Source: a virus. From it: a stretch of 60,646 bases of DNA. This document shows positions 995-45,007 of the stretch, piece by piece (within the stretch, counting starts at the first letter, position 1; each line of letters begins with the position of its first letter). Below the pieces are notes generated by a model, which had not been told where the DNA came from, did no database searches, and saw only the letters and a list, made by a program, of their open reading frames with translations. The translations under genes and the position numbers were made by a program. The stretch covers positions 1 through 60,646 of IMG/VR virus record IMGVR_UViG_3300046559_000479. One strand, given 5' to 3'.

Positions 995-1006
995 AGATTG
1001 TGCGTT

Positions 1007-1020: not shown

Positions 1021-1060
1021 CCTTAATCAGTTTGGGGGAGGGGAGGGGGCCGTGTCAAGG

Positions 1061-1076: not shown

Positions 1077-1086
1077 GAGGGTGGAT

Positions 1087-1335: not shown

Positions 1336-2012
1336 TCTCCCCCCTTCGGTCCCGTCACGCGTACCGTCGTGTATTCCTTCCGCTTCGTACACTGGGCAAT
1401 CGTCTCAGCCGGTACCCCCGCCAGCACCAACGCCTCCTTGTCCAGGGTACTATTGCTCCCGTTCACCTTCGCCACCGTCCAGTCCTCCCACGTCACCTTC
1501 TCCACCCCTTGCCGGTCAAAGAATCCAAGCAGGGACTTGTTAATGACCTCGATCCTCTCCTTGATCCTGTCCGCGTCCGTCTTGAGGGAGATACGCTCCT
1601 GGAACAGTTCCCGGAGGAGTTCGGGCTTGCCGGGGAACTCGATCCCCCACAGGAGTTCCGCGTCCTCGATGGAGTAGGACTCACCCTTGGTCGGCCCTAT
1701 CCCCGTCAAAGGCACCATCGTAGGTAATGTTGGAACACCACGCACCATAACTGTGACTTCCACTGGCCCTACCTCAGCCTCCACCACCGGCACCGGCCCT
1801 GTGTTCCCGTCTTTGAACCCATTCAACTCCTCACTCAACATGGAAAGGGCCGCTTTCTTCGTCACCCCGTACGCCGTCACCCCCAGACACTCGGCCTGCC
1901 ACTTGCCCCCATCCACCTTTTCTACCACGTAGTCCAACCCTTCCAATGGGTCCGTCTTAGGGGGAGCCTTTGGTTTAGGTTCCGCTCCCGGTTCTCGTTT
2001 TGCTCTCGGCAT
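1332..2012 (-). CDS. Hypothetical phage protein, 226 aa
   Basis: Not recognised with certainty. Lys/Pro-rich N-terminus ('MPRAKREPGAEPKPK'), a beta-rich middle with Val/Pro segments, then a helical region ('DADRIKERIEVINKSLLGFF') followed by 'WTVAKVNGSNS' and a Thr-rich C-terminus. The helical-then-beta C-terminal half resembles small phage proteins in recombination or early regions (Gp157-like), but I cannot support a name. A GGAACGGGTAAA element precedes the start. Overlaps the next gene by GTGA. Confidence 0.65.
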   Translation of the reverse strand: MPRAKREPGAEPKPKAPPKTDPLEGLDYVVEKVDGGKWQAECLGVTAYGVTKKAALSMLSEELNGFKDGNTGPVPVVEAEVGPVEVTVMVRGVPTLPTMVPLTGIGPTKGESYSIEDAELLWGIEFPGKPELLRELFQERISLKTDADRIKERIEVINKSLLGFFDRQGVEKVTWEDWTVAKVNGSNSTLDKEALVLAGVPAETIAQCTKRKEYTTVRVTGPKGGE

Positions 2013-2020
2013 TTTGCTCG

Positions 2021-2036
2021 TTTACCCGTTCCTTTC
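2021..2036 (-). promoter_or_regulatory. Recurrent leader element GGAACGGGTAAA, copy 2
   Basis: Minus strand reads GAAAGGAACGGGTAAA about 9 bases before the ATG at 2012. It contains the likely Shine-Dalgarno (AAAGGA). Confidence 0.45.
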
Positions 2037-2046
2037 AGATTTTGAA

Positions 2047-2205
2047 TTACCAAACTTTCCCGTTCTCGGAGTCCAACACAAACGTCTGAACACTGAGTTC
2101 CCCACTGTGGGACTGCACACACTTCTCCGCAAGTTCATTAGTAGAGAACACACCAACGATGGCCCAAGCGTACTCGGCACTCATATAGACCACAAACACT
2201 TCCAT
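2047..2205 (-). CDS. Hypothetical small protein, 52 aa
   Basis: Below usual size cut-offs. ATG at 2205 lies 5 bases after the preceding stop. Sequence begins 'MEVFVVYMSAEYAW' and ends 'VLDSENGKVW'. The pattern 'A..I.GVFST.E.A' resembles short phage proteins with a beta-alpha-beta unit that report a sensory-like YdeI/DUF-type fold, but this is weak. Chosen over the 109-aa frame because its N-terminal half overlaps the neighbouring gene. Confidence 0.5.
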   Translation of the reverse strand: MEVFVVYMSAEYAWAIVGVFSTNELAEKCVQSHSGELSVQTFVLDSENGKVW

Positions 2206-2210
2206 TTGAG

Positions 2211-2408
2211 CTACTGACCACCAGTTTCTAACTCCCGCACCCACCGCTCCTGTACCACCGCCGCTCGTCTCCCGTGTAGTCCCCGTACGTGTACCGCGTG
2301 CCGGTGCAACCACCAGGACAACTGTTCGACCGTGTTGACGTACCCGTGCCCCACGAGGCACACCCCGACCCAACACAGGACGAGGATGAGGACGTATACC
2401 AGCGTCAT
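2211..2408 (-). CDS. Small membrane protein, 65 aa
   Basis: N-terminal hydrophobic segment 'MTLVYVLILVLCWVGVCLVG' then a basic tail rich in His, Arg and Trp. Starts within an ATGA overlap with the stop of the upstream gene. One membrane span with the tail probably cytoplasmic. Function unknown. Confidence 0.55.
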   Translation of the reverse strand: MTLVYVLILVLCWVGVCLVGHGYVNTVEQLSWWLHRHAVHVRGLHGRRAAVVQERWVRELETGGQ

Positions 2409-2767
2409 AGCCCTAGTGCCCTCCGCTCTTTTGGTGTGAGCTTAGCCAACGCCGTCTTACGTTCCTTCTCTTCCTTCTCCCGTTCGATGTCCGCTAGGAT
2501 GTGGTCCTTGTGCCATTCCTTCAGCCTACGTGACATCGCGTTGCTCTGGTTGCAGAGTTGGGCAAGACGTTTGGAGGACAGACCTTTTAAGAAGGTACAG
2601 AGAGTCGGCACCAAATCCAACTCACAATACTCATCCTGTGCCGCTGTACTCACAGACTTTGGGACCTTTGATCCTTCCTGTCCGTAGCACCACTCCAACA
2701 GTTCCGCCGTTTTCTGAAGGGCACGTTCTTTCCCGTTCGGCTCCATGTAGCTTGAATCACAGGGCAT
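2405..2767 (-). CDS. Conserved phage protein with CDSSYMEP N-terminus
   Basis: About 120 aa. Starts 'MPCDSSYMEPNGKE', an N-terminal signature I recognise from many phage hypothetical proteins. The rest is alpha-helical and highly charged, with a predicted coiled coil ('ILADIEREKEEKER') and a basic C-terminus ('TPKERRALGL'). ATG at 2767 follows GAGGAG at good spacing. It overlaps the 42-aa ORF upstream and the membrane-protein gene downstream. Function unknown; early-gene position. Confidence 0.65.
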   Translation of the reverse strand: MPCDSSYMEPNGKERALQKTAELLEWCYGQEGSKVPKSVSTAAQDEYCELDLVPTLCTFLKGLSSKRLAQLCNQSNAMSRRLKEWHKDHILADIEREKEEKERKTALAKLTPKERRALGL

Positions 2768-2885
2768 TCTGTTTTCTCCTCGTGGGCAACCCCAACTCCA
2801 CCGTCCACACCCCACACTCCCTCATCTTCTTCCGGCGATACCATCTACAGTGCCGCCACAGGAACAGGTCGATCACTTTAGCCAT
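2757..2885 (-). CDS. Small basic protein, 42 aa
   Basis: ATG at 2885 with a strong GGGAGGAG Shine-Dalgarno. It begins 4 bases after the helicase stop. Contains 'FLWRHCRWYRRKKMREC', a Trp/Arg/Cys-rich stretch. The end overlaps the next start by 11 bp. Function unknown. Confidence 0.45.
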   Translation of the reverse strand: MAKVIDLFLWRHCRWYRRKKMRECGVWTVELGLPTRRKQNAL

Positions 2886-2889
2886 AAAA

Positions 2890-4428
2890 TTACTCCTCCC
2901 ACCACTCGGAATTTTGACCGCCCTTTTTTGGGTCGGGCACAGGTACACACACGTCCACGAGTTCTCGCTTAGCCCGCGTTACCGCAACGTAGGCTAGGTT
3001 CCGCTCTCCCTCGATGTCGGCCTCAGTCTTGGCCCACTTGGACGGCTGGTACCGATTCCGACCCAGGATAAACACACGATCCCACTCACGGCCCTTCGCA
3101 CGGTGAATCGTACAGAGCCTCACGAGGTCCTGTCCCTGGTACTGCCCCTCGCCAAAGGTCATTTCAAGTTTCTGGACCAACCGGCGCACCGGCTCATCTC
3201 CCCCCACGTCCTCCATCAGGTCCCGGAGTATCCCCACCTTCTCCCCGACCCACTCCGCCTTGTCCTCTCGACCTTTGCCCCGCCACTTCTCCAACTCCTT
3301 CTCCAGGTGGCCGGACAGGAGGACATCCAACTGATCTACGGTAATGTCCCCGCCCCATTTCGTGGCGAGGGCAATGATGGCTTTCCCACTCTGGCCCTCG
3401 ACGATGCAGGGGATGCCATTGTTGCGGAGGCGGCGGGCGACCCCTACCAAGGGGCGAGTATTCCGGCACAGGATGGCGTCCTTGCCAGGGACCAGTGACT
3501 CCCCCCAGAACTTGAGGTGGGAAATGGTACGGACGGTGCCTTCAGGATTCTCCTCGTGCGCCGTGTAGTCAGGACACCACGTTTGCGCGAGGGCCACCAC
3601 TGATTTAGGGCACCGATACGTAATGTTCAAGGGCAACTCATCCGCCCCAGTCACATCTCTGATTAGGTCCATCGCGTTAGCCGTGGCCCCGGCGAAATGA
3701 AAGATACACTGGAAATCGTCGCCTACCGCAATGACCCGGCCACCAGTTTTGAGCACGTGGAGGGCCATCAGGCGACGGGTGGCACTGGTATCCTGGCACT
3801 CATCAATCATTACCGTGTCGTACAATTCTGGCTTTCCCTGTGAAAACATGAGGGGGAGGAGGAGCATGTCACTGAAGTCGATCCTCCCCTCGTCGCACGC
3901 CATCCTCACCGATTCCTTGTATGTCTTGATGCACTCGGTGATAATCCGTGCCGGTGTGATCCCACTAGGCACCTCATCCCAAAGGTCGTAGTCGTCAAAT
4001 AGTTTCTCCCATGACGTAACACTGTCGATGGCGGGGAGACCAGGGATGCCGAACCCAATGTGCTTGGCGTACTCTACCGCGTCCACCAGGACATCGGCGT
4101 GTGCCCGGTCCCACTGGGCGTGGGTCTTAGCGATGGCACGGACTTTGCGCCCGTCCACCTCGTTCTTGCTACGAATCTTGCGCCACTGGGAGAAGCCCAC
4201 GGAATGGAGGGTGGCGGCGGTGGCGTACGGATTGCCCGTGATGCGGGACCCGAGTTCATCGGCAATGCTCTTGTTAAAAGCGCAGAGGAGTGTATGGCCC
4301 ACGGTGCGATTGGCGCATTCCACGAGCACGGTAGATTTCCCCGTGCCTGCCCTCGCTTTAATAATGAGGGAATCACGGCTCTGTTGAACTTTCGCGTAGA
4401 TGAGAAGTTGCTGTTCCGACCAATTCAT
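2890..4428 (-). CDS. UvrD/Rep-like superfamily 1A DNA helicase
   Basis: 512 aa, 3'-5' helicase family acting on replication or repair intermediates. Walker A 'ARAGTGKST' at about residues 25-33; Walker B 'MIDECQDTS' near 240; 'VGDDFQCIF' (motif III); 'TIHRAKGREW' (motif V) and 'YVAVTRAKREL' (motif VI) near the C-terminus. Shorter than UvrD (about 720 aa), with a reduced 2B domain, as in many phage helicases. ATG at 4428 has AAGGAGAC upstream; the longer frame is rejected because its first 52 residues are a GC-rich artefact. A palindromic motif copy lies about 70 bp upstream. Confidence 0.93.
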   Translation of the reverse strand: MNWSEQQLLIYAKVQQSRDSLIIKARAGTGKSTVLVECANRTVGHTLLCAFNKSIADELGSRITGNPYATAATLHSVGFSQWRKIRSKNEVDGRKVRAIAKTHAQWDRAHADVLVDAVEYAKHIGFGIPGLPAIDSVTSWEKLFDDYDLWDEVPSGITPARIITECIKTYKESVRMACDEGRIDFSDMLLLPLMFSQGKPELYDTVMIDECQDTSATRRLMALHVLKTGGRVIAVGDDFQCIFHFAGATANAMDLIRDVTGADELPLNITYRCPKSVVALAQTWCPDYTAHEENPEGTVRTISHLKFWGESLVPGKDAILCRNTRPLVGVARRLRNNGIPCIVEGQSGKAIIALATKWGGDITVDQLDVLLSGHLEKELEKWRGKGREDKAEWVGEKVGILRDLMEDVGGDEPVRRLVQKLEMTFGEGQYQGQDLVRLCTIHRAKGREWDRVFILGRNRYQPSKWAKTEADIEGERNLAYVAVTRAKRELVDVCVPVPDPKKGGQNSEWWEE

Positions 4429-6354: not shown

Positions 6355-6884
6355 TACTTTTCTCCAAAGGCCCTTTGAATAGCCTCTCCAAAATGACTAG
6401 TCTCGGTGTTCCCCGCTTTCATCTCTGCTAACAGGTCCTCCGTTATGTTGTCGGCAATCTTCTCAAACAACCTAATCTCCTCCATCAACCTCCCCCACGT
6501 CACGGTGGCGAGGGGTCCGATAGGCTCGTTACAAGGCATCAGAGGTTTATTGGATCTGGACGTTGACGAGGCCATTTCAATAAACCTGTGGCACGGTTGG
6601 CACAAGTTAACGATCTCCGGTGCATCCCCCAGGATCTCTTGACGTGCAACCTTTGGAATCTTCCAAGAAATTCTCTGTGGTACTCGGTGGTGACGGGAAA
6701 TTGTTTTAGGGTGGTAGTGACCACAAGCAGCACACGAGACATTCTCCACCGTCTTTTCCGTGGAAGGCCCGCGTAGGATTGCCAACTCTGCCTCAAGGCC
6801 ACGGACACGTTTTTGTAGCTTCCGCATCTCTTGTTGACGAGCGGTACAACTACTGCACGTGTGAGTGGTCCGAGTAAGTGTCAC
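6354..6884 (-). CDS. HNH-type endonuclease-like protein
   Basis: 176 aa. N-terminal 'CSSCTARQQEMRKLQKR' plus a short coiled coil, then an HNH-like zinc core: 'CAACGHYHPKTISRHHRVP' followed by 'APEIVNLCQPCHRFIE'. The paired CxxC knuckles and the HH...N...H pattern match the HNH superfamily. The GTG start at 6884 overlaps the polymerase stop (GTGA) after GGTGGGGGG. In this position it could be a recombination or packaging nuclease, or a homing-type insertion. Catalytic function is inferred from the motif only. Confidence 0.65.
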   Translation of the reverse strand: MTLTRTTHTCSSCTARQQEMRKLQKRVRGLEAELAILRGPSTEKTVENVSCAACGHYHPKTISRHHRVPQRISWKIPKVARQEILGDAPEIVNLCQPCHRFIEMASSTSRSNKPLMPCNEPIGPLATVTWGRLMEEIRLFEKIADNITEDLLAEMKAGNTETSHFGEAIQRAFGEK

Positions 6885-8278
6885 AGGTCCCCCCACCTTT
6901 CTCCAAACTCCAAACTACTTTCACTCGGGACGTTCAAACTCACACTGCCCTCCATCGTGGCCCTCGCGTACTGCCCGAACTCTTCCGCGTGCCGTACGTC
7001 TACATCTGCCAATATCTGATCGTGGATTTGCAGAGCCGGGGTGCATCGGTAACTCTTGTTCCGTTTCTCCATCTCCACGTTGGTTTCCGCCATGGCCAAC
7101 TTCACCCCACCTTGGCTTGAACTTTGCTCGTAATGATTCCCCGCCTTCCGCGTCCCCTCATTCACCAGCCTCATGTGGGTAGACTTCGCCTCGGGAACAA
7201 GCCGGGGCCTACCAAACGCATCCCATACAAGTCCGTACCTCTTGGCACGGGTATATTGCAGGTCCATGAAGGCGCGGAGGCGGGGATAGATTCCAAAGAA
7301 CTGGTCAATGAAGGACTGACACTTCGCCTCGGACCAGCGTATGGCCCCTTCACTCTCTTTTAATATGTTTCGCTGGAGTCCAAGGGCAGTGAGGCCGTAC
7401 AGTACGCCAAATCCCAGGTTCTTGGTGGGGGCACGTTCCTCTCTTTTGATACGCTCAAACTCGGGCGACTTCTTATCCATCGCCATGACGGTATCGTAGT
7501 CCCGGCCAAAGATGGCACAGGTATTTTTCCAGTGGATGTCTTGGCCGAGATAGAACACTTCCATCATGACTGGGTCCTGGGAACCGTGAGCGGCCCACCT
7601 CATCTCATCCTGGGAGCGGTCAACAGAAACGAACGTGCAGCCGGGGGATGCAATAAAGGCGTTGCGTACGGCTTTACCCAGTGGTGCAGTCTTGCCATTG
7701 ACGGTAACGAGTGTTTTGCTCCTTGCCGAGACGTTTTGCAAATTTGGTCGTGATGATGACAACCGGCCCGTTGCCGCCACCGTTGGGTTGAAAGTCGTGT
7801 GGAGGTAAGAATCGGAATCAACTAACAAAGGCAACGGTTCAGTGTACGTGTTCTTAGTTTTGTCCAACTCTCGCCAATCAAGAATCAGGTTTACTATTGG
7901 ACTACGTGACTTGAAAACTTCTAGGATGTCATCAGACGTGGTATACCGCATTCCTTTGGGTGTCATCGGTACGGGATCATCGCCCTGAATCTTCATGTGC
8001 TCAAACAAGAGACGGGAAACATGGTCCGGCGATCCAACGGAGAATGGCGTCAACTTCCCTTTGTACGAATCCTGGTACGCGCCCAGGTGTACCCCCATCT
8101 CAAACTCGATGTCGGAGATTTGCCGGTTGATTTCGACGGTAAGGGAGTTGATGTAGGGGACATCGAGCCTCACCCCGTACTTGTGCATGTCCCGAATCAT
8201 GGGGAGGGCCGCGATATCGAGGGCATGGGTGTTGGCAGGGTCAGGCCAGTCCTCCGAGAAATGAATCCCACCCCACAT
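6881..8278 (-). CDS. Family A DNA polymerase, polymerase domain only
   Basis: 466 aa replicative-type polymerase. Thumb begins at once ('MHKYGVRLDVPYI'), so the 3'-5' exonuclease domain is missing. Motif A 'VDRSQDEMRWAAH' with metal-binding Asp at about 220 (usual D-Y-S-Q-x-E); motif B 'PTKNLGFGVLYG' with Lys at about 286; motif C 'LQIHDQILADV' with HDQ at 419-421, where most relatives have HDE. The exonuclease is encoded separately at 11114-12628. ATG at 8278 follows AAGGACG and sits directly after the preceding stop; the longer frame overlaps that gene. Confidence 0.93.
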   Translation of the reverse strand: MWGGIHFSEDWPDPANTHALDIAALPMIRDMHKYGVRLDVPYINSLTVEINRQISDIEFEMGVHLGAYQDSYKGKLTPFSVGSPDHVSRLLFEHMKIQGDDPVPMTPKGMRYTTSDDILEVFKSRSPIVNLILDWRELDKTKNTYTEPLPLLVDSDSYLHTTFNPTVAATGRLSSSRPNLQNVSARSKTLVTVNGKTAPLGKAVRNAFIASPGCTFVSVDRSQDEMRWAAHGSQDPVMMEVFYLGQDIHWKNTCAIFGRDYDTVMAMDKKSPEFERIKREERAPTKNLGFGVLYGLTALGLQRNILKESEGAIRWSEAKCQSFIDQFFGIYPRLRAFMDLQYTRAKRYGLVWDAFGRPRLVPEAKSTHMRLVNEGTRKAGNHYEQSSSQGGVKLAMAETNVEMEKRNKSYRCTPALQIHDQILADVDVRHAEEFGQYARATMEGSVSLNVPSESSLEFGERWGDL

Positions 8279-8279
8279 C

Positions 8280-8495
8280 CTAGTAATCGTCCTTGAGCAA
8301 GAAGAAGTACATGGCCGCAATTGTGCCCACCGAAAAAAGCACCATCAGAGTTGTCGCCGGAATCTGCCAGAGGACGGGGTGATTTGGGTCCCACGGACAT
8401 ACGGCGTCAAAAGCTAGACGAGGGACGAGCAACAGAAAATCGGACAGAGAGAATAGTATGACTCGGCCACAACCTTCAAAAAAGCTTTTCATCAT
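8280..8495 (-). CDS. Small membrane protein, 71 aa
   Basis: Two hydrophobic segments ('RVILFSLSDFLLLVPRLAF' and 'TTLMVLFSVGTIAAMYFFLL') separated by a Pro/Trp loop. ATG-ATG start overlaps the upstream stop. Stops 1 base before the polymerase start. Function unknown. Confidence 0.55.
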   Translation of the reverse strand: MMKSFFEGCGRVILFSLSDFLLLVPRLAFDAVCPWDPNHPVLWQIPATTLMVLFSVGTIAAMYFFLLKDDY

Positions 8496-8614
8496 TTAGT
8501 CCTTGTCTGGTGTATCCCGTGGTACGGGCACAACCACGCGAGTTCGGTACCGAGAGCGGAGAATAGAATCGGCGTCCAATGAGGGCGACACCACCAGAGG
8601 GAGGGGCCGGTCAT
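8492..8614 (-). CDS. Very small protein, 40 aa
   Basis: ATG at 8614 in an ATGA overlap with the macro-domain gene stop; ends in a TAAATGATG junction with the next gene. Trp/Cys/His/Pro-rich ('LWWCRPHWTPI', 'AWLCPYHG'). Supported only by coupling on both sides; may be a linker ORF. Confidence 0.35.
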   Translation of the reverse strand: MTGPSLWWCRPHWTPILFSALGTELAWLCPYHGIHQTRTK

Positions 8615-9072
8615 GGATGAATCTCCACGACGGTAAACCTGTCGTCCAGGATCGGAGCTATGACGGCGCGTACGTCGGACCATTGTAGGTGCCCGTTCCC
8701 ACAACCGGGCCGGGGAAGATACACGTGGTCCATATTCGCAACCCGTTCATCAGTACTTAATAGACGTGCAGTTCGGTCTATCAATTCCATGTCCGCCGTG
8801 TCGCCCCAATGCCATTTGACCCGGAAAGTAATTAGACGCCACTCAGGGAAAACGAAAACTGGAAAATTGAGTAGCCCTCGGGAAGGTGGGCCATAAAAAA
8901 GTAGTTCTTTCCCGACTGCATAAGGGAACTGCGGAAATCTACTCGCTGCCTGTTTTGCAATCCCTCGCCCCATCACACAGGCCCCGTCCCGTCGCACGGT
9001 CCCATTCGTCGTGATGCAGATGTAGTGCCCTTGCGCGTGGAAGTCCCAGAGGTCACCAGTAATCTCTTTCAT
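8611..9072 (-). CDS. Macro-domain (ADP-ribose-binding) protein
   Basis: 153 aa, single macro domain related to Poa1p/ALC-type ADP-ribose binders. 'ITGDLWDF' and 'VMGRGIAKQAASRFP' fit the ligand-binding loop; 'LPRPGCGNGHLQWSDV' fits the second loop. The family binds or removes ADP-ribose from proteins, nucleic acids or small molecules. In a virus it could counter ADP-ribosylation or NAD-derived signals in host defence, or salvage nucleotides; this is inference. Starts in an ATGA overlap with the membrane-protein gene upstream. Confidence 0.8.
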   Translation of the reverse strand: MKEITGDLWDFHAQGHYICITTNGTVRRDGACVMGRGIAKQAASRFPQFPYAVGKELLFYGPPSRGLLNFPVFVFPEWRLITFRVKWHWGDTADMELIDRTARLLSTDERVANMDHVYLPRPGCGNGHLQWSDVRAVIAPILDDRFTVVEIHP

Positions 9073-9215
9073 CGCTCGTCTTTCCCCTTCCCCTCAAACA
9101 TGAACTTGACCACGTGCCAGATCAAAAAATACGTCACCGCGATCCCCTCGGCTAAAACGATGACGGCAACCAAAACCAACATCCCGTCCAGTACCCAGTC
9201 TCGCCAGTGGATCAT
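9069..9215 (-). CDS. Small membrane protein, 48 aa
   Basis: ATG at 9215 with AGGTGACGGT upstream. One strong membrane span 'MLVLVAVIVLAEGIAVTYFL', then a basic tail. The longer frame from 9293 adds an implausible N-terminus. Function unknown. Confidence 0.5.
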   Translation of the reverse strand: MIHWRDWVLDGMLVLVAVIVLAEGIAVTYFLIWHVVKFMFEGKGKDER

Positions 9216-9362
9216 ACCGTCACCTGCCCTTTTTAAAATCGATTCGTAGGGGTCTGCCCCGCTCCAGGTGCAATCGGGGCCGTATCCACCCAATACCGGG
9301 ACACCCCCAGGGGGCTTACAACGCGTCCTAGAGCGTTTGTTCCCTTTTCATTCGCCTTGGGC

Positions 9363-9377
9363 CTTTCACCGGGAAAG
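9363..9377. promoter_or_regulatory. Palindromic element variant, copy 3 (CTTTCACCGGGAAAG)
   Basis: Overlaps the last codons and stop of the 130-aa gene and precedes a 150-bp stretch without a gene before the small membrane protein. The central base differs from the main consensus. Confidence 0.55.
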
Positions 9378-9758
9378 ATTTGCATTTTGAGCCTCCCTTT
9401 TCGCCGCCAACTTCGCCAATCTCTTCCTCGTCTCCTCCTGGTGCTCCCGTTCCAGCTTCACTGCCAGTTGATCCAATTGCCTGTCCGCTTCCTTCTGCCG
9501 TTCCATTTCCAATCTCCTCGCCTCTTCCTCATCGGTGAAAGAATGGGTCAGGTGTACGCCGATCACGTTCAGCAGGCTCTCGACGCCACGGGAGAGTTTC
9601 ACTTGGCTCCAGGAATCCTTGGTCCCCTTTTTGAACGTGTGATTACCTACCGTGAAGTCACGGAGCACTACCCCGTTCTTCGCCAGGGGCTCCGGTTTAA
9701 CCGTATGCACTTTCACCTTGGCCTGCTTGGGAACGATTCTGAGTTTCTTTTTTCTCAC
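9366..9758 (-). CDS. Hypothetical charged helical protein, 130 aa
   Basis: Basic N-terminus ('MRKKKLRIVPKQ'), a short beta region ('DFTVGNHTFKKGTKDSW'), then a long charged helix ('EEARRLEMERQKEADRQL') to the end: a probable coiled coil over residues 75-130. Not recognised. Follows the HTH gene by 3 bases. Confidence 0.6.
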   Translation of the reverse strand: MRKKKLRIVPKQAKVKVHTVKPEPLAKNGVVLRDFTVGNHTFKKGTKDSWSQVKLSRGVESLLNVIGVHLTHSFTDEEEARRLEMERQKEADRQLDQLAVKLEREHQEETRKRLAKLAAKREAQNANLSR

Positions 9759-9761
9759 GGG

Positions 9762-10133
9762 CTACCGGATCTCGTCGTAGTACTTCCTGTCTTCCGTTCG
9801 ATAGTCGTCCTTGGTTTTCCGTTTCGTCCTCAACGTGTACATCAATAGATCATGGAACCACTTTTCAAGGATTGGGAAATGATATTTGACCGTCATCCGT
9901 TCGCACGCCTCACATACCGGGACCGGGAGGCGGGAACTGCGGCGGACCATCAACGTGAGGGTAGATGGGAGCACGCCAATGGTCCGCGCCAATTCCTCCC
10001 AGGTCATGCCGGTATACTCCTTCAACAGGCCCAACGCCTCCCCGATGGTCTGGGGTTTGACCTCGCGGGGCCGGTGGCTCCGATGGTAGGTGCGGAACAG
10101 GCGTTGGTAAAAAGATTCTTCGGTCTGTGCCAC
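9762..10133 (-). CDS. Putative HTH DNA-binding protein
   Basis: About 123 aa. A helix-turn-helix is visible at 'MTWEELARTIGVLPSTLTLMVRR', preceded by 'EALGLLKEYTG', resembling an XRE-like fold. Basic C-terminus ('LRTKRKTKDDYRTEDRKY'). GTG at 10133 overlaps the previous TAG (TAGTG), with GGAG at usable spacing. Possible regulator of the early operon; partner site unknown. Confidence 0.6.
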   Translation of the reverse strand: MAQTEESFYQRLFRTYHRSHRPREVKPQTIGEALGLLKEYTGMTWEELARTIGVLPSTLTLMVRRSSRLPVPVCEACERMTVKYHFPILEKWFHDLLMYTLRTKRKTKDDYRTEDRKYYDEIR

Positions 10134-10564
10134 TACAGCATCTCCATGACTCTCACCTTGCGCCGGAAGGTGTTCCACAACTCCGTCATTACCCCCGCTT
10201 CAATTTGGGCCACGAGGATGGGGGTGAGGCGCATCTGGGCCTCCTGTGGGGCGTTCCACGTGCCTCCTGATATCGTCCGCATCTGCTGGTCGTGGTACAG
10301 GTACTCGACATCGATCCCGTCGTCGGTAGCGTACGCGTTGCATACGATCTCGGAACGGGTCAAGGGTGACTCTTGGAGGAAGAAAGAAACTCGGAGTGTG
10401 TACGGATCTTCAGTTGCCGTTACCAATTTACCTGTGCTCCCTGTTTTCGATTTGCTCGTGCGCCCGGTGCCGGTACCCTTACCCTCGCCACTGCCCCGTC
10501 CCAGTACCCTTCTCTTATAACATACATGGATATAAATATACAAGGCTTGTACAACGATATTCAT
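10133..10564 (-). CDS. Hypothetical protein, up to 143 aa (start uncertain)
   Basis: The C-terminal 100 residues look coding ('LRVSFFLQESPLTRSE', 'AQIEAGVMTELWNTFRRK'). The first 35-45 residues are doubtful because a promoter-like TTGTAT-N17-TTATAAG reads through them on the minus strand; translation may start near 10440 at TTG after GGGAGCACAGG. Function unknown. A TAGTG junction couples it to the HTH gene. Confidence 0.5.
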   Translation of the reverse strand: MNIVVQALYIYIHVCYKRRVLGRGSGEGKGTGTGRTSKSKTGSTGKLVTATEDPYTLRVSFFLQESPLTRSEIVCNAYATDDGIDVEYLYHDQQMRTISGGTWNAPQEAQMRLTPILVAQIEAGVMTELWNTFRRKVRVMEML

Positions 10565-10590
10565 GTATAGGGGGTCTGGGGGGGACGAAA

Positions 10591-10653
10591 CTAAAAATTA
10601 CGGTGTTTTGGGGGTTGGTATACAGCTTTTGTTCTCTTTTTGTTCCCTTTCAT
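10591..10653 (-). CDS. Possible 20-aa peptide after GIY-YIG gene
   Basis: ATG in an ATGA overlap with the GIY-YIG stop encodes 'MKGNKKRTKAVYQ' and a short tail. Very short and supported only by coupling; may be non-functional. Confidence 0.2.
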   Translation of the reverse strand: MKGNKKRTKAVYQPPKHRNF

Positions 10654-11138
10654 GCCCTACCATTCACCTTGTTCCAGACTCTCAGAGCTTCATTAATGTG
10701 TTGCCAAGTTGCCAAGAGTTCAGCTTGTATTTTGCGCTCAACTCGTACTTTCCTTTTCTTCGGGGGTGTAATTTTAGTGCGCTGGACTCGATACACGCCG
10801 TAGATTCTTTGACCACTTGAGATTCTTTGGCTGCGTAAAACATGTTGGCGATTACTGACTGGTTTGAGTCTTTTGATGAGTCGGATCTCAAGCTGTTCCC
10901 TCTCTTCAATCTCACGGTATTTGAAGGTTAGTTGGCTTGCCTCCGCTAGAACTCCCAAAGCACGTTTTAGATGGCCATTCAGCCTCTTTCGTAGGTTCTT
11001 GGATTCCCCAACGTATCTCAGTAACCCATCGAGGTATATGACGTAAACGCCCGAAGATTGTGGGACTGTGTTGATGCCGTCGATGGTTGCAGATTTCCAG
11101 CGCGACAAAGTTTTCACAGGAAAAGAAACGGTTGGCAC
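10650..11138 (-). CDS. GIY-YIG nuclease (homing-type)
   Basis: 162 aa. GIY-YIG signature 'GVYVIYLDGLLRYVGES' at residues 30-46, conserved Arg in 'NLRKRL' (about 50) and catalytic Glu about 84 in 'QLEIRLIKRLKP'. The C-terminal half is basic and may bind DNA. GTG start at 11138 lies inside the 3' end of the UDG-exonuclease gene (25-bp overlap). Free-standing phage GIY-YIG genes are usually homing endonucleases or repair nucleases. Its place between the two halves of a split polymerase suggests the former; inference. Confidence 0.85.
   Translation of the reverse strand: MPTVSFPVKTLSRWKSATIDGINTVPQSSGVYVIYLDGLLRYVGESKNLRKRLNGHLKRALGVLAEASQLTFKYREIEEREQLEIRLIKRLKPVSNRQHVLRSQRISSGQRIYGVYRVQRTKITPPKKRKVRVERKIQAELLATWQHINEALRVWNKVNGRA
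11111..11125. promoter_or_regulatory. Palindromic element variant, copy 4 (1-bp shorter)
   Basis: Plus strand TTTTCACAGGAAAAG; one central base is missing relative to the consensus. It lies in the overlap of the UDG-exonuclease end and the GIY-YIG start (codons for 'SFPVK'). Could be chance. Confidence 0.4.
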
Positions 11139-12628
11139 TTCTCAAGGTACAGGTGCAGACGGAGGGTTGAGTCGGCATCTCTCACGGCATAGTGTACGAG
11201 TTCCTTCTCAGGTACGTGAGCGACACTCGCTACCGGCCACTCTCCAACGTAATCCACCGCGTACCCTCGGTCCCATTCATGCCACGCTCTCACCCGCTTC
11301 CACGGATCGACAAAGGGGTAGTCGTCTTCATCGTCCATGTCGAGTTCTTCCGCGACTTGGTGATTTTCAATTGCCGTGATGAGGTTGACGGTTTTGCGAT
11401 GCAGGAGAGAGTGCCGTTTCTCTTCCTCAGTCAGTGGGGACCGCTTGTTGTGTTTGTGCCTCTTACATAAACACAAAGTACACGGTCCTGTGCGTCGTTT
11501 AGTTTTGCCCCTTCCTTCATGTACCGCCGTCGCGTGACCGCAGATACATGTGAGTACTTTGCTCCCCGGCTCAAACGTCGCCTTCACTCTTTTCAGCCAC
11601 TCCACCATCCTCGGGATCGAGTGGGGGTATACCGTATCCCTGAAGCTCGTCATGCTCATGTGAAGATATCGGTACGCCAACATCTTCAACGAGAGAGAGC
11701 CTCGTGCCCCACGCCCAGCCTCGTCGTCATCACCGCCCCCACCTAGACACAGGTTGTACGCGTGGACCATCGTATCAGTGAAGGTACCGATGGTGAGGTC
11801 CAGTGCATCGAACACTGTAACGTCGTGGAGGTAGTTGTGGAACGCCAGTTCAGCAGAAGTTACTTTCAACCATCGGCGGAGGTACGCCAACGTGTGCTCA
11901 TCCTTCACATAGATCAGTCTGCCCGTCCCAGGAGTGTGGGATACCGTGACGCAGTAGGGGGATTTGTCAGGGAGGGATTCCGTGTCACAGGCGAGAAGTA
12001 ACACCGCGTTCATGTCATCCAAATACTCGTCCAACTCGTTTGGCCCACGGCATACCCTGTAGTCCGGCTCCGGGTACGGGTCACTCGGCCACGTGAATGT
12101 CCCCCGGTCCAACTCCGCCAGCATCTTCCTTAGCCCGTCGAAGTCGTTCAACAACGGGATCATGTAGGCGGCTTGGCGCATCCCAGCGGTAATGTGGTGA
12201 GTCGGATAAACGATCCCCGACCAAGACCCCCATTTAGCCTGCCGTGGAATCCCGTGGTCGGTCGTTACGTTAATCCCAAACAGGCTACAGCTTACGGCAC
12301 CGGACAGGACCAGGACCTGTGGCTTGACCTGCTCCAGCATCGGCCCGAGGTGGATCGAGGCACAGGACATGGCTTGTTCAGGAGTAGGGTTGGCGTAGTC
12401 CGGTTCACTGCACCACCGGGCGTTGGCAAGGAAGATTTCGGACCTCGGGATGTTCAAGAGGGTGAGGTATAGGCCCTCTAGTTCCTGTCCCGTGGGTCCG
12501 CACAGGGGTCGCCCATAGGCATCTTCTTTGTGGTGGGGAGCCTCAGCAAGTAAGGCCACCCGGCATGGGATGGGGCCTTCGGGGAGGACGGGGGGACGGT
12601 ATTTAGGACAGAGGGAGCACCGCGTCAT
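11114..12628 (-). CDS. UDG-like domain fused to DEDDy 3'-5' exonuclease (polymerase proofreading half)
   Basis: 504 aa. Residues 1-195 resemble family 4/5 uracil-DNA glycosylase: cluster cysteines C4, C7, C73 and C89 (spacing fits a 4Fe-4S site) and 'AEAPHHKED' at 28-36 for the GEAPG-type motif. Residues 205-490 are a DnaQ/PolA-type exonuclease: D215-x-E217, D269, D285 and Y480/D484. A zinc module (C361, C363, H365, H370, C383, C386, C388) is inserted between exo motifs. The protein ends just after exo III. In SPO1-type polymerases UDG-like, exo and pol domains are one chain; here the pol domain is at 6881-8278. Confidence 0.85.
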   Translation of the reverse strand: MTRCSLCPKYRPPVLPEGPIPCRVALLAEAPHHKEDAYGRPLCGPTGQELEGLYLTLLNIPRSEIFLANARWCSEPDYANPTPEQAMSCASIHLGPMLEQVKPQVLVLSGAVSCSLFGINVTTDHGIPRQAKWGSWSGIVYPTHHITAGMRQAAYMIPLLNDFDGLRKMLAELDRGTFTWPSDPYPEPDYRVCRGPNELDEYLDDMNAVLLLACDTESLPDKSPYCVTVSHTPGTGRLIYVKDEHTLAYLRRWLKVTSAELAFHNYLHDVTVFDALDLTIGTFTDTMVHAYNLCLGGGGDDDEAGRGARGSLSLKMLAYRYLHMSMTSFRDTVYPHSIPRMVEWLKRVKATFEPGSKVLTCICGHATAVHEGRGKTKRRTGPCTLCLCKRHKHNKRSPLTEEEKRHSLLHRKTVNLITAIENHQVAEELDMDDEDDYPFVDPWKRVRAWHEWDRGYAVDYVGEWPVASVAHVPEKELVHYAVRDADSTLRLHLYLEKCQPFLFL

Positions 12629-22413: not shown

Positions 22414-22631
22414 TGAGCCTTTCACGGGTCGAAGACAACCTGGAAAAGACTACCAGCTACGCCATCTCCAAGAGTGTGGGGGTAGACGCAAGTCATGTAC
22501 GACACATTCTCCGGGGTACACGGGTCCCTAGTTTAGAGGTCGCGGCACGGATCGCACGGAAACTCAACGTGAGTCTTGATATGTTCTACCGCTACTACTC
22601 ACGGCAGAGCAAACAAACTCCAGTGAATTAG
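22413..22631 (+). CDS. XRE/Cro-CI-type HTH repressor, 72 aa
   Basis: Single HTH domain: 'TTSYAISKSVGVDASHVRHILRG' is the helix-turn-helix, followed by 'PSLEVAARIARKLNVSLDMF', the usual XRE C-terminal helices. No oligomerisation or cleavage domain. It lies divergent to the leftward early operon across 150 bp holding two operator-like sites, so it is the likely repressor of lysogeny or plasmid state. Its last 21 codons are repeated, diverged, beyond the HNH gene at 23274-23339. Confidence 0.8.
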   Translation: MSLSRVEDNLEKTTSYAISKSVGVDASHVRHILRGTRVPSLEVAARIARKLNVSLDMFYRYYSRQSKQTPVN

Positions 22632-23263: not shown

Positions 23264-23556
23264 CCTAGTGCCCGTGAGCCTGGACGCGTTCTATCGGTAT
23301 TACTCGAAACAGGCCCAGGGGTCCGTGTCGGTGAATTAGCGAAGGACCGAAAGTTAATCAGACGTGACTCAACCATCAGTAGGTTAAACTCCAGCATCCG
23401 CCGATTGTGTTTTCTTTCCCTCTCCGCATGAGCCTCTATTTGTCTGACTCGTTCTGTGCAGACACCTAAGCGTAGGCCAATGTCTTTCAACGTGTAACCA
23501 CGATCACGAAGGAGTAGGATAAACTCTCTCCGTTGGACGACCTGAGATCGGGTCAC
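23260..23556 (-). CDS. Sigma-70 region 4-like small HTH protein
   Basis: 98 aa. GTG start in a GTGA overlap. 'RGYTLKDIGLRLGVCTERVR' followed by 'QIEAHAERERK' is the pattern of sigma factor region 4.2 (TL.EIG..LGVT.ERVRQIE). Regions 1-3 are absent, so it cannot be a full sigma factor; it may bind -35-like DNA or act as an anti-sigma or co-activator. The last 25 residues are encoded antisense to the repressor remnant and may be an acquired tail. Confidence 0.7.
   Translation of the reverse strand: MTRSQVVQRREFILLLRDRGYTLKDIGLRLGVCTERVRQIEAHAERERKHNRRMLEFNLLMVESRLINFRSFANSPTRTPGPVSSNTDRTRPGSRALG
23268..23339 (+). pseudogene. Remnant of a repressor 3' end
   Basis: In frame: 'VPVSLDAFYRYYSKQ...VN' and a TAG stop, matching the end of the intact repressor 'VSLDMFYRYYSRQ...VN'. 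Codons differ at many third positions, so it is a diverged copy and not a fresh duplication. It lies antisense inside the 3' part of the sigma-4-like gene. Confidence 0.7.
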
Positions 23557-25094: not shown

Positions 25095-25748
25095 CTAAGA
25101 GGCGCGTTTGCGGGTGGAATGGGGGCGGGAATGGGGGGAGGGTTTTTGAACGGAGGAGGGAGAGGGGGAGAGTTCCCGGTAGACGTTCAGGGCAGTGGAC
25201 GCCGTGACGTTTAGACGGGTGCCTATGGCCCGCCAACTTAAACCCTCAGAATCCCTCAGGCGTAACACTTCGTCCCGTTTGAACACGATCCTAGGCCGTC
25301 CCAGGGTCTTCCCTTTGGCTTTGGCGGCACGGACGCCTGCAATGGTTCGTTCCCGAATGATTTCGCGTTCAAACTCCGCGACGGCGGCGAGGACTTGGAG
25401 GATGAGGGTGGAAACAGGGTTGGAGGCATCCGTGTCAATGCCTTGACTCACAGCAAGGAACCGGACACCATACCGCTTGAGGGAGTCCATTTGTTGGTGG
25501 AGGTGGAGGACGGAACGGGAGAAGCGATCCAGTTTCCACACAACCACTGTGTCGAAATCCCGTTGCTGGGCGGAAGTCATGAGGCGGTCGAGGGCGGGGC
25601 GGGAGGCTTTGGCACCGGACACACCGGAGTCCACATACTCGTGCGTGAGGGTCCAACCTCGACGGGAACAGTAGTCCCGCAGTTCTTTCAACTGGATTTC
25701 ACAGTTCTGATCGTTGGTGGAAACGCGGGCGTACAAAACTACCTTCAC
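25095..25748 (-). CDS. Serine recombinase (resolvase/invertase family)
   Basis: 217 aa from GTG at 25748. Catalytic Ser10 in 'VVLYARVSTNDQ'; 'VDSGVSGAKASRPALDRLM', 'DTVVVWKLDRFSRSV' and 'AEFEREIIRERTIAGVRAAKAKG' are the standard N-terminal domain motifs; a C-terminal HTH ('GLSWRAIGTRLNVTAS') follows. Length matches small resolvases and invertases, not large phage integrases. Likely resolves multimers of the circular genome or inverts a segment. TTG at 25784 is an alternative start. Palindromes lie on both sides. Confidence 0.93.
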   Translation of the reverse strand: MKVVLYARVSTNDQNCEIQLKELRDYCSRRGWTLTHEYVDSGVSGAKASRPALDRLMTSAQQRDFDTVVVWKLDRFSRSVLHLHQQMDSLKRYGVRFLAVSQGIDTDASNPVSTLILQVLAAVAEFEREIIRERTIAGVRAAKAKGKTLGRPRIVFKRDEVLRLRDSEGLSWRAIGTRLNVTASTALNVYRELSPSPSSVQKPSPHSRPHSTRKRAS

Positions 25749-25762
25749 GTGGACTAGGATAG

Positions 25763-25783
25763 TGCCAATTTCCCCCTTTGGCA
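25763..25783. repeat. Inverted repeat TGCCAA-N9-TTGGCA upstream of the recombinase
   Basis: TGCCAATTTCCCCCTTTGGCA, just before the recombinase start. Possible accessory binding site or operator in the 52-bp gap between genes. Confidence 0.4.
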
Positions 25784-25800
25784 ATTAGGGGAAGTTGGGA

Positions 25801-41482: not shown

Positions 41483-43609
41483 TTAGTGCCTCGGCCAGAA
41501 GTACCCGTGCAGTCCCGCGACTACGTTCCCCACCCCCGCCGTCAGTGCCCCCGTGACGTTCGGTGCCGCGACGATGTACCGGATCAGATCACCGGACCTG
41601 ACTTGAAGCCCCCCGGCAATGGGTGACATGTTCTGTAGCGTGCCGATGCTCACCTCCATCAACCCACAGTCCCGCATGAAGCGGCCCGCAGATTCCAGCC
41701 GCCAAACAATGTCCCCAGAGCCCTCGACAAAGATTGGCACGGGGAACGCGGTGGGATCGGTAATGTACCCGTGGTACTGGCCCAGGATCACGCCATCGTA
41801 GCCTATGGGGACACGGAACTGGAATATCACGTTGTCACCCGAGGCCACCGTGGGTAACGGGATCGCCCCGGTAGGATTGAAGGCGATGGCTCCCTCGGGC
41901 GGTCCCATCGGCACTTCCTCGTGCTCGGAAAAGTTCCCGCCCCAGTCCCGCTCGTCAGTACAAAAACAGAACGGCTTCACCCCACACTTGAGGAGTTCCC
42001 GGTTGATGAGCTTATAGAGGAGGTATTCTCGGCCTAAGCACGAATCAAAGTGGTTGAGGATGACGTGAATGAATCCTCTACCCCCCGTTGACGGTACTGG
42101 CGGGATGACGATAGAGCAATTTGCAGTTGCCGTTGCCCCGAGTGAATCAGTCGCTTGCACCGTGAAGGAGAAGGTGCCGGACAGTAATGGAATCCCCGTG
42201 ATGATGCCGGTGGCGGGATCGAGGGTTAGGCCAGGTGGGAGAGAACCGGAAATGATGGCGTAGGTGTAAGGGGGCGTACCACCTGTCGCTACTACCGTCC
42301 CCGTGTAGAGGATGTTCAACGTGGCGGAACCGATGGGACACGTGACGATGACGGGGGCCACGACTCCTATGGATAAATGAAACTGCCCTTGATATATCTC
42401 CGTCCCCGCTTGAATTGGGAAAAGTCCAATCATTGCTCTGACGCCAAAACTAAGTTGGCGAACAGAGACAGAGTTGGGGGTGTTCTCCCCGTTAAGACCA
42501 CCCGCTTGAGGCGGTGGCGTAACGGGGGGGTCCACCGCCTTGTCCCAGTAGACCGATTCCACCGCCCAAGGTCCTACCAACGCGGGGGACGTGGACTGGA
42601 GTACTTGATTCGGAGTATTCCCCGGCCCAGGCCCTTGCCACGTCCACATGGAGGTGAGAGTGAGGCCGTCTGGCGAAATGCAGAAGTCCGTCCAGAAAGT
42701 GTCCTCGTCCGCATTGATATCCGAGGCCACCACCACCGTTGCAAACACTGGCGGCGACACACTCATATCTGCCGTAAGCATGGTTGGTTGGATGGTGGAG
42801 GGGGTAGGGAAGAAGGGGAGGCACCAACCAATCTTGTTTTCCGCCGCTACAAATTTCCCCTGCGCGTTCCACCCTTGGCCGAGATCGTAGCGATTGTCGT
42901 TCCAAGGGGTGGAGTAGGGGAACGCGACGGATTTTGCCGAGAACCCACCACCCGAGGTCCAGGTAGCCACGTAGTACTGGGCATCCACCTGTGAGTCCCA
43001 CGTCATCACCACCGTGTCGGCATTGTCAATCCCCATGAGGTTGACGAAGTTTGAAGCGGATAGACTGCCCGCCTGGAGTAGGTGAGGGGTGCCCCAGACT
43101 CCCGCTGAGGAACACGTTACCGCGAGTACGCTACCGGTGCCTGATGACGTATCCGTGTAGAATGCAACAAAGGTCCCCGTTGAGGTCCGTGCTAGAAGTT
43201 GGTTTGGTGCCGAGGCCCCCGCATTCGGCCCCCCCGTGGCAATCGAAGTCCACGTGTCGGTAGCCATGTTGAAACTGAAAATCGACAGTGGGTTAGAAAA
43301 CTTACCTACCCCTTGTTGCGTGAGGATGTAAAGGATATTGCCGCCAGACGACGGGTAGAAGCAGGAACTAAACCAGTCTTGGATTCCCCCTGTTGGTGCT
43401 CCTGGGATGTCTTGTTCGGTGAAGGTCACTCCACTGTCAGTGGATTTGAAAACCCCGGTACGGATTGCTACCTGGGTAACGGCGTCGAAGACGGACAATA
43501 CTTCGTAGATCGCGCCACCGCGCTCAAACGGGCCTTGGTTTCCGTCTCCTAGGTTGTACCCATAGATGATGTCCCCAGGCTGAATGATGTGTGGTGTTGG
43601 TCCCGGCAT
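41483..43609 (-). CDS. 708-aa beta-rich virion/receptor-binding protein with Ig-like domain
   Basis: N-terminal 380 residues look like a BNR/beta-propeller ('FKSTDSGVTFTEQDIPGAP', 'LLARTSTGTFVAFYTDTSSG'). Residues about 415-500 are a putative Ig (He_PIG) domain ('GTPPYTYAIISGSLPPGLTL', 'TGIPLLSGTFSFTVQATDSL'). The last about 200 residues ('VPIGYDGVILGQYHGY', 'FVEGSGDIVWRLESAGRFM') match the 222-aa protein encoded next door. Likely a multi-domain spike or vertex protein. No signal peptide. Confidence 0.65.
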   Translation of the reverse strand: MPGPTPHIIQPGDIIYGYNLGDGNQGPFERGGAIYEVLSVFDAVTQVAIRTGVFKSTDSGVTFTEQDIPGAPTGGIQDWFSSCFYPSSGGNILYILTQQGVGKFSNPLSIFSFNMATDTWTSIATGGPNAGASAPNQLLARTSTGTFVAFYTDTSSGTGSVLAVTCSSAGVWGTPHLLQAGSLSASNFVNLMGIDNADTVVMTWDSQVDAQYYVATWTSGGGFSAKSVAFPYSTPWNDNRYDLGQGWNAQGKFVAAENKIGWCLPFFPTPSTIQPTMLTADMSVSPPVFATVVVASDINADEDTFWTDFCISPDGLTLTSMWTWQGPGPGNTPNQVLQSTSPALVGPWAVESVYWDKAVDPPVTPPPQAGGLNGENTPNSVSVRQLSFGVRAMIGLFPIQAGTEIYQGQFHLSIGVVAPVIVTCPIGSATLNILYTGTVVATGGTPPYTYAIISGSLPPGLTLDPATGIITGIPLLSGTFSFTVQATDSLGATATANCSIVIPPVPSTGGRGFIHVILNHFDSCLGREYLLYKLINRELLKCGVKPFCFCTDERDWGGNFSEHEEVPMGPPEGAIAFNPTGAIPLPTVASGDNVIFQFRVPIGYDGVILGQYHGYITDPTAFPVPIFVEGSGDIVWRLESAGRFMRDCGLMEVSIGTLQNMSPIAGGLQVRSGDLIRYIVAAPNVTGALTAGVGNVVAGLHGYFWPRH

Positions 43610-43631
43610 CTTTTCTTATTCCGGGTTCAGA

Positions 43632-43670
43632 CTACCGGGGGTACACGAACCACCCCGTGATGCTACAATC
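43632..43670 (-). pseudogene. Remnant of the 222-aa gene 3' end
   Basis: Minus strand encodes 'DCSITGWFVYPR' and a TAG, matching the intact end 'VVSITGWVYPR' plus stop at 44339-44371 with one extra residue and diverged codons. It lies on the far side of the HNH gene, mirroring the repressor case at 23268-23339. Confidence 0.65.
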
Positions 43671-43676
43671 AAATTC

Positions 43677-44336
43677 ATGCCCACAGTTCCAAAACTGATC
43701 CCAAAAGCTGGTGATAGATTTGGACTCTGGACAGTGCTCGGCCCTGCCAGGGAGAAACATAACTATCGTGCGCGTTATTACTTTTGCCTTTGCGACTGTG
43801 GCACTGAAAGGGACGTGAATGTATACCGCCTCAGAGAAAGAACGTATTGCAGTTATGCACGCCATGAGGTAGGAAACACTGTTCATGGGTTGTGTCGCGT
43901 GAAGGGAGCAGACGGACGTTCGATCAGAGATAAACAGACACCCGAGTATGTTGCATGGCGCAATATGAAACAGCGTTGCTACAATCCAAATTTCTCTGGG
44001 TATGAGAGGTGGGGTGGTCGCGGCATCACCGTTTGCACTCGTTGGCTTGAGTCGTTTGAAAACTTTTTTCAGGACATGGGTAAACGCCCAAGCTCCCGTC
44101 ACACACTTGAACGCAAGAACAATTCTCTCAACTACACTCCTAACAATTGCAAATGGGCAACGAGAGAAAGGCAGTCGAACAACACTAGGACTAATCGAAT
44201 CCTCACGCACAACGGGAAGAGCCTGACTGTGGCTGATTGGGCCAGGGAAACGGGGATCTCCTACGTCGTTCTTTCGAGCCGTGTTAGGTATGGATGGTCC
44301 ATTGAAAGAATACTCACGGCCCCAGTGAGAAAATAA
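43677..44336 (+). CDS. HNH homing-type endonuclease, 219 aa
   Basis: ATG at 43677. N-terminal 'GDRFGLWTVLGPA' and 'CLCDCGTERDVNVYRLR' resemble the NUMOD/AP2-like entry domain; HNH core 'YERWGGRGITVCTRW', 'RHTLERKNNSLNYTPNNCKW' and 'ATRERQSNNTRTNR'; C-terminal NUMOD1-like HTH 'SLTVADWARETGISYVVLS'. Clearly lower GC than its neighbours and on the opposite strand, converging with the 222-aa gene (stops 3 bp apart). A recent free-standing homing endonuclease. Confidence 0.88.
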   Translation: MPTVPKLIPKAGDRFGLWTVLGPAREKHNYRARYYFCLCDCGTERDVNVYRLRERTYCSYARHEVGNTVHGLCRVKGADGRSIRDKQTPEYVAWRNMKQRCYNPNFSGYERWGGRGITVCTRWLESFENFFQDMGKRPSSRHTLERKNNSLNYTPNNCKWATRERQSNNTRTNRILTHNGKSLTVADWARETGISYVVLSSRVRYGWSIERILTAPVRK

Positions 44337-44338
44337 AT

Positions 44339-45007
44339 TCATCGAGGATATACCCATCCCGTGATGCTGACCACGATCTTACTCGTCGCGTTGATTCGTG
44401 CGTCGGCTCCGGGGGCGAAGGCGACGAAGAACTGAAGGATGTCCTCGGACCATACCCTAAGTCCGCCTCGTGGTACCGGGCTAGGTGACGTGAGACTGCC
44501 CAGGCTCGTCTTGATGTTCCCGTGGTCACGGAGGAAGCGGCCCGAGGCACTGAGCCGCCAGATGAGGTCACCGGACCCTTCCACAAACCCCGTGGCGGTA
44601 CCTCCAGCCCCCGGCAGAATCCCGCATACCACATCGGTAATCACACCATCGTATCCGACCGGCACCAACTCATTGCCCGATTGTGTGTTGAACGGGACCT
44701 GAGTATCAAGCCCGTTGAATCCCACCATCCCTGGGACTGCCAACAGGCCAATGGGCTTAAACCGTCTCCCCTCGGCGGGCATCGCGATCCAAGGGCGGGT
44801 AGTGTAGGGGGTGCGACCTCGGGGGCAACATATTTTACGTAATCCACCTCCCGCCACCATTTGGTTCCACAGCATCCGGTCAGAGTTCAGACAGGCATCG
44901 TACGAGTTGGGCCGTTGTGACGGCTTCTGGAGGCACGTGTTGATGATTACCGTGCTACGAGTTGTTTGGTACGCCGGTATTACCGCGTTGCCCTGTTGTG
45001 GGTCCAT
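44339..45007 (-). CDS. 222-aa virion-like protein sharing the C-terminal domain of the 708-aa protein
   Basis: From about residue 110: 'VPVGYDGVITDVVCGI', 'FVEGSGDLIWRLSASGRFL', 'SEDILQFFVAF' and the end 'SITGWVYPR'. Corresponding blocks occur in the same order in the 708-aa protein, so the two share a domain. N-terminal region has Cys pairs ('KICCPRGRTP'). Probably a beta-barrel vertex or spike-base component. Directly follows the 210-aa gene. Confidence 0.65.
   Translation of the reverse strand: MDPQQGNAVIPAYQTTRSTVIINTCLQKPSQRPNSYDACLNSDRMLWNQMVAGGGLRKICCPRGRTPYTTRPWIAMPAEGRRFKPIGLLAVPGMVGFNGLDTQVPFNTQSGNELVPVGYDGVITDVVCGILPGAGGTATGFVEGSGDLIWRLSASGRFLRDHGNIKTSLGSLTSPSPVPRGGLRVWSEDILQFFVAFAPGADARINATSKIVVSITGWVYPR

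Follow-up and report, generated by a model that had tools for sequence, protein, structure and literature searches.

Free-standing HNH cassettes in phage genomes appear to replace the end of the gene they invade

Free-standing HNH homing cassettes in phages very probably replace the end of the gene that they invade, bringing a substitute end, which lies in front of the endonuclease gene, and leaving the native end behind it. The layout was found twice in the window, the 60,646-nt stretch of viral DNA analysed here. It recurs in Acinetobacter phages, where one cassette stands before several different remnants, and in a survey of HNH loci, where it is enriched over control ORFs and has a mirror version at gene starts.

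At the focal locus (Table 1), the C terminus of the 222-aa gene reads ...VVSITGWVYPR-stop on the minus strand and its stop is 2 nt apart from that of the HNH ORF. A second gene end, SITGWFVYPR-stop, was observed 12 bases outside the HNH start codon, with 22 nt between its own end and the ATG (43609) of the 708-aa gene, whose C-terminal domain is distantly paralogous to the 222-aa target (~30% identity). The first-pass annotation had read both sequences correctly. However, its span 44339-44371 for the end in use takes in one additional Val codon (SITGWVYPR-stop occupies 44368-44339), and the copy at 43632-43664, which it described as in-frame, lies 707 nt from the intact stop and therefore outside the frame of the 222-aa gene. 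This remnant is the end of a 241-codon frame open antisense to the HNH gene, which is not remarkable since such frames are present in 6-9% of HNH ORFs. The duplicate is short (10-11 codons). Nevertheless, among 2670 stop-anchored tails of the window the best non-self match of the 222-aa tail was the remnant, with a score of 44 (next 27), and no score above 37 occurred in 1500 mismatched flank pairs. When 56 HNH loci were first tested against 1500 such pairs, the two window cases alone surpassed all null values. No match to the 222-aa protein was observed in Pfam, PHROG or NCBIfam.

Table 1. Coordinates of the features discussed, and loci with duplicated gene ends or starts
Locus	Feature	Coordinates	Strand	Remarks
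Window	target gene, 222 aa	44339..45007	-	ORF; within block of virion-like genes
Window	gene end in use, SITGWVYPR-stop	44339..44368	-	30 nt
Window	HNH endonuclease gene, 219 aa	43677..44336	+	antisense to its target
Window	remnant SITGWFVYPR-stop	43632..43664	-	Cys (TGT) immediately before
Window	next gene, 708 aa	41483..43609	-	ORF
Window	HTH repressor-like gene, 72 aa	22413..22631	+	HTH_3 7.9e-09; present tail 22569-22631
Window	HNH endonuclease gene, 209 aa	22634..23263	+	PHROG 3377 3.9e-35, PHROG 374 7.4e-34
Window	repressor remnant VSLDAFYRYYSKQAQGSVSVN-stop	23274..23339	+	anchored tail comparison
Window	split DNA polymerase A	6881-12628	-	UDG + 3'-5' exonuclease half 12628-11114, polymerase half 8320-6881 (Pfam)
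Window	GIY-YIG gene	11138-10650		directly after first DNA polymerase A half
Window	serine recombinase	25095-25784	-	Resolvase 2.2e-45
AP22 (L313)	HNH gene at head-gene end	1471-2277		preceded by gene end ..CKCRKCLIIDIPETI-stop, followed by remnant FRCRKKLIIEIPDKPYQNN-stop
BUCT629 (L324)	297-aa gene	2208-3101	-	antisense, abuts head-gene stop
L272	gene end			target: DUF2201 metallopeptidase/VWA-like protein
L255	gene end			target: homologue of phiKZ PHIKZ042
L276	gene end			target: ATP-dependent DNA ligase
L133	gene end			target: PHROG Holliday-junction resolvase; remnant fused in frame to HNH C terminus
L170	gene end			target: anti-repressor-like; remnant fused in frame to HNH C terminus
L087	gene end			remnant fused in frame to HNH C terminus
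L167	gene end			remnant fused in frame to HNH C terminus
L121	gene start			target: TerL; HNH ORF begins with old start of target
L174	gene start			target: RusA; HNH ORF begins with old start of target
L094	gene start			HNH ORF begins with old start of target
L126	gene start			among the 13 passing loci
L073	128-aa non-HNH ORF	780-1300		between two 78% identical gene ends (EFPRRQTEQEAEQDMRNFLEW..)

In the second window case, where the target is a repressor-like gene, the order of target, stop, HNH gene and remnant is the same, as had been proposed from the first reading: the repressor tail matched its remnant with a score of 62 (next 25, stop-anchored window tails). ORF coordinates also agree with the orientations given there, the HNH gene being antisense to its target at the 222-aa gene and on the same strand at the repressor. 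The two HNH genes of this phage are related to each other. A search of viral contigs gave no relatives of the repressor and no empty-site relative for this case. Elsewhere in the window, a DNA polymerase A gene is split, with a GIY-YIG gene and several small genes between the halves, and a serine recombinase gene is present.

Among annotated phages, the layout was seen in two of 14 loci, as judged without a formal null. In Xanthomonas phage LucasX it is located at a gene start, where a remnant MIVYEGPGNLFECGVQTITCS is followed by an HNH gene and then by a macro-domain gene starting MIIYEGPGDLFSCGMQCITCS. In Acinetobacter phage AP22 the head-morphogenesis gene (Phage_Mu_F) shows it at its end. 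We compared AP22 with eight relatives without its HNH gene (L318-L325) and six HNH-bearing relatives (L326-L331). The head gene of QH4, which has no insert, ends ..CKCRKYLIIDVPDNTYQNN-stop and is directly joined to the shared downstream DNA; the post-HNH DNA of AP22 (remnant and downstream) is identical to this native gene end at 99/108 positions. The HNH gene is 771-796/800 nt identical to that of AP22 in all six HNH-bearing relatives, and the gene tail in front of it 57-58/60 nt identical in five of the six (those with the gene end included). The remnants behind it are of three kinds, one in AP22 (..DKPYQNN), one in IME-Ap7 (..DNANQNN) and one in Ab65, YNAF, Ab59, Ab31 and Ab69 (CRCRAKLIIEIPDSMT). 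Between AP22 and IME-Ap7, for instance, the HNH genes are identical at 796/800 positions (99.5%) and the remnants at 35/46 (76%), p 4e-12. One cassette, with a near-identical tail and HNH gene, thus stands before three different recipient ends. At the level of sequence comparison, we regard this as the decisive evidence for gene-end replacement.

Other inserts, small ORFs accompanied by other head-gene ends, were observed at the AP22 site in AB1, XC1, IME284, Acba_21 and Scipio. In Obolenskvirus, a type represented by 77 records, the head-morphogenesis gene varies repeatedly at its 3' end (L318, L319, L321, L322, L323, L325), with small inserts before the same downstream DNA, and, judging from these sequences, this is an insertion hot spot with end exchange. 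In BUCT629, an antisense 297-aa gene abuts the head-gene stop at the site of the AP22 HNH gene, the same arrangement as at the 222-aa gene of the window. This gene, for which PHROG matches were weak, presumably resembles EDxHD endonucleases. More than one endonuclease family may therefore use end replacement.

The generality of the layout was investigated in 297 non-redundant usable HNH ORFs. An unanchored comparison of protein and nucleotide flanks was too noisy, since high scores were obtained in GC-rich repeats (L013, L014) and the focal case reached only p 0.03; it was dropped and stop- or start-anchored tests were used instead. Four end-anchored comparisons were made, for gene ends and gene starts, each same-strand and antisense, with 3000 mismatched pairs each. 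The numbers of loci above the 99.8th percentile of the null were 13, 7, 4 and 2, with 0.6 expected. Part of these were HNH-HNH tandems or of low complexity, and the tandems L119 and L129 were set aside as false signals; L119, a viral contig, carries three consecutive HNH ORFs with similar C-terminal stretches. A first count (24/297 HNH loci against 47/963 controls) was rejected because tandem paralogues had inflated it. Paralogy and low-complexity filters, with a cut-off score of 40, were then applied alike to HNH loci and control ORFs. Scores of at least 40 were retained by 13/297 HNH loci and 8/963 other ORFs, two of these eight being HNH loci missed by masking. After removal of four control ORFs that were HNH loci or overlay one, the counts were 13/297 against 6/959 (p 4e-5).

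The 13 loci include both window cases and affect unrelated targets (Table 1). With 284/297 HNH loci failing to pass at this score, the signature concerns a minority. L247 (antisense layout, score 64) and L193 (score 36) are absent from the passing loci, presumably lost to the 40% identity floor and to too short a target, respectively; L039, L089, L124, L215 and L274 are weaker candidates outside the count. In several loci the remnant is fused to the HNH ORF and supplies its start or stop, so that the end of the recipient has in some cases been recycled by the enzyme. In L073, a 128-aa non-HNH ORF lies between similar gene ends, and either a different type of end-replacing insert or a tandem duplication might account for this.

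These results bear on whether homing is needed at all. Gene end and HNH gene could have been swapped in as one block by mosaic recombination, the HNH gene being a passenger, and the non-HNH inserts that come with different head-gene ends at the AP22 site would fit such an exchange. It is nevertheless unlikely as a general explanation, given that the layout is enriched beside HNH genes over other genes, that the remnant repeatedly lies tight against the HNH stop or start, and that in-frame fusions of remnant and HNH ORF occur. Recombination alone may spread some cassettes.

We further examined which of the two focal copies is the old one, using relatives without the HNH gene. The search with the 222-aa protein itself found a single relative, L001, and none in the phage collection. 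In L001, the closest HNH-less relative, the 222-aa homologue (62% identical) has the end CSITGWWYPR-stop, 29 nt before the start of the 708-aa homologue, and the HNH gene is absent. The Cys before SITGW is common to L001 and the remnant, whereas Val occupies this place in the gene end now in use. Judging from this gene order and this end, the 222-aa gene probably ended natively with the remnant sequence, and its present end arrived with the HNH gene. A second, more distant relative (L332), found with a neighbouring protein, also lacks the HNH gene; its 222-aa homologue ends TSLSGWMYPR-stop. The HNH gene of the window is thus absent at the same site in both relatives, as is the AP22 insert in QH4. 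The match of remnant to sister-lineage native end, 99/108 for AP22 and QH4, can be set in the window against L001 only, at 62% identity and with the shared Cys. A donor of the SITGWVYPR end was not found. The proteins belong to a virion-block family (window 41483-45007, L332 7489-11768) with a shared C-terminal domain, ending G-W/Y-x-Y/W-P-R, that has no match in Pfam; two copies are present in the window and in L001 and three in L332.

The third copy in L332 is a 576-aa paralogue, ending CGLRGWMYPRT-stop, between the 222-aa and 708-aa homologues. It gives a precedent in the family for the objection, raised in the first-pass annotation, that another gene of the 222/708-aa family formerly stood at the focal site and lost all but its last codons to the HNH gene or to a deletion. 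We consider this quite unlikely because L001, the closer relative, has no such gene and because the remnant has a 222-type end (SITGW..YPR-stop), not that of the paralogue types ending PRT or PRH. Moreover, the same layout in unrelated genes and in the AP22 recipients needs no paralogue. The objection thus found an example in the distant relative but not in the closest one.

The two focal copies differ in their codons, as had been noticed initially: they are identical at 14/15 nt in the 5' part (43650-43664 versus 44354-44368) and then differ synonymously, with four codons identical, five synonymous, none nonsynonymous and one codon indel. Since they differ only in this way, both were presumably functional coding ends in separate lineages before they came together. 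In 21 candidate cases taken together, 91 codons were identical, 130 synonymous and 162 nonsynonymous; 130 synonymous codons are many for such copies, a figure biased by the choice of cases by protein similarity. Third-position GC is 0.45 in the last 11 codons in use, 0.68 in the gene body, 0.51 in the HNH gene and 1.0 in the remnant, which would point to a foreign in-use end at the 222-aa gene; this composition signal is suggestive only and not consistent over the other cases. Around the 297 HNH ORFs, long near-identical repeats were not found, except at one tandem-HNH locus and in two instances with modest scores of 38 and 32 (null maximum 31), and this scarcity argues against fresh target-site duplication. 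That staggered cutting and gap filling doubled about 30 nt, the copies diverging later, is very improbable: the near-identity at one end of the repeat would agree with it, but the differences are synonymous, though a remnant would not be under selection, fresh copies are not seen apart from the exceptions above, different remnants follow one nearly identical cassette and, in AP22, the empty site is matched by the remnant rather than by the present end. A transposon with target-site duplication was rejected for the synonymous differences and the indel, in agreement with the survey of repeats.

Taken together, the survey and the HNH-less relatives (L001 for the focal case, QH4 for AP22 with its three remnants behind one cassette), two comparisons proposed by the first-pass annotation, support its suggestion that insertion at the 3' ends of genes is a general mechanism and leaves the target protein intact. 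Two refinements can be made: the copy behind the HNH gene is probably the old native end, the one in use having come with the cassette, and a mirror version of the layout exists at gene starts.

We propose that a free-standing HNH homing gene inserted in the 222-aa coding sequence a few codons before its stop, as part of a cassette that would combine a donor's version of the gene end with the endonuclease gene. The upstream junction would lie in a conserved coding stretch (AGCATCACGGG), so that the donor end would complete the recipient gene and the protein would be preserved. The recipient's own last codons would be left behind the HNH gene as an untranslated remnant or, elsewhere, become fused to the endonuclease. 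In a co-infecting phage without the cassette, the enzyme would cut the native gene end, and repair from the cassette-bearing genome would install cassette and substitute end together. When the cassette first entered a new lineage, a short homologous stretch at the gene-side junction (AGCATCACGGG) might have sufficed, the old end staying on the other side. The substitute end should escape cutting because its codons differ.

The focal HNH protein matches PHROG 374 (1.6e-57) and 3377 (2.9e-53), both named HNH endonuclease, with no match in Pfam or NCBIfam; its HNH family occurs in 860 phage records. The best VIA match of its AlphaFold model (pLDDT 85) was the HNH enzyme PacI, with a middling Z of 6.2 over 86 residues within residues 69-173. 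No match with an E value of 0.001 or lower was obtained by Foldseek of the model against the PDB, and a profile search of PDB sequences gave one weak ribosomal-protein match only. Family and predicted fold are consistent with a nuclease activity. A group I intron was rejected, since no intron match was obtained with Rfam at the gathering threshold over the whole window and the target has its own stop before the insert; an intein was rejected since the focal HNH gene is antisense and placed after a stop codon.

An atp6 mobile ORF with C-terminal replacement was reportedly described in Allomyces in 1994. Fungal mitochondrial mORFs with C-terminal replacement are known from Glomus atp6, atp9, cox2 and nad3 and from Allomyces atp6, according to the available part of PMC3630166. 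As described there, they share with the phage loci a foreign in-frame C-terminal part, an endonuclease ORF and a native C-terminal remnant, the remnant being nearer to the sister lineage than the inserted end is and the differences largely synonymous. In the window, as the mORF criterion has it, duplicate gene ends flank the HNH gene and the intact 222-aa gene uses the near copy. The same part of PMC3630166 places mORFs in mitochondria, with LAGLIDADG or GIY-YIG enzymes and all genes on one strand, whereas the phage cassettes carry HNH genes, also antisense and also at gene starts. Since the family is HNH and the carrier a virus, the cassette works like a mORF but is not classed as one.

The seg/mob-type free-standing homing endonucleases of phages are likewise intron-less, lie beside conserved genes and are present or absent between relatives; in contrast, they are described as lying in intergenic regions and cutting hundreds to thousands of bp from there, and gene-end replacement is absent from the portion of the description at hand (PMC2988022). 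In Skunavirus and ICP1-like phages, too, HNH or other HEG loci are numerous and variably present, and gene-end duplication does not appear in the accessible sections of their descriptions (PMC12724721, PMC10448857); end replacement is equally unmentioned in those of further phage papers (PMC5936750, PMC12893723, PMC12846349). We recognised no report of phage gene-end replacement in the open-licence PMC literature, from which subscription papers are mostly missing, and an earlier one may exist.

The closest designed analogue would be a home-and-rescue drive of the HomeR type, which in the available excerpt (PMC7968924) follows a similar logic in that a homing element sits in an essential gene and comes with a rescue of it. 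HomeR is an engineered CRISPR system in Drosophila, whereas the phage cassettes are natural and their substitute end is presumed to be resistant. Whether they are natural home-and-rescue drives, with a nuclease that recognises the native end or start and a cassette that carries a diverged, uncuttable version, seems to us an even call. If they are, the host gene would never be lost, the cassette could hardly be deleted without damage to the gene, and a single nuclease family could colonise many essential genes.

Gene-end replacement would explain how selfish endonuclease genes enter essential phage coding sequence without an intron or intein. The Obolenskvirus site combines a single cassette with remnants of three kinds and with an empty allele, all among cultivated phages, and the remnant end is a readable scar by which homing events can be traced. 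The first or last codons of phage genes can be foreign, which affects both annotation and phylogeny.
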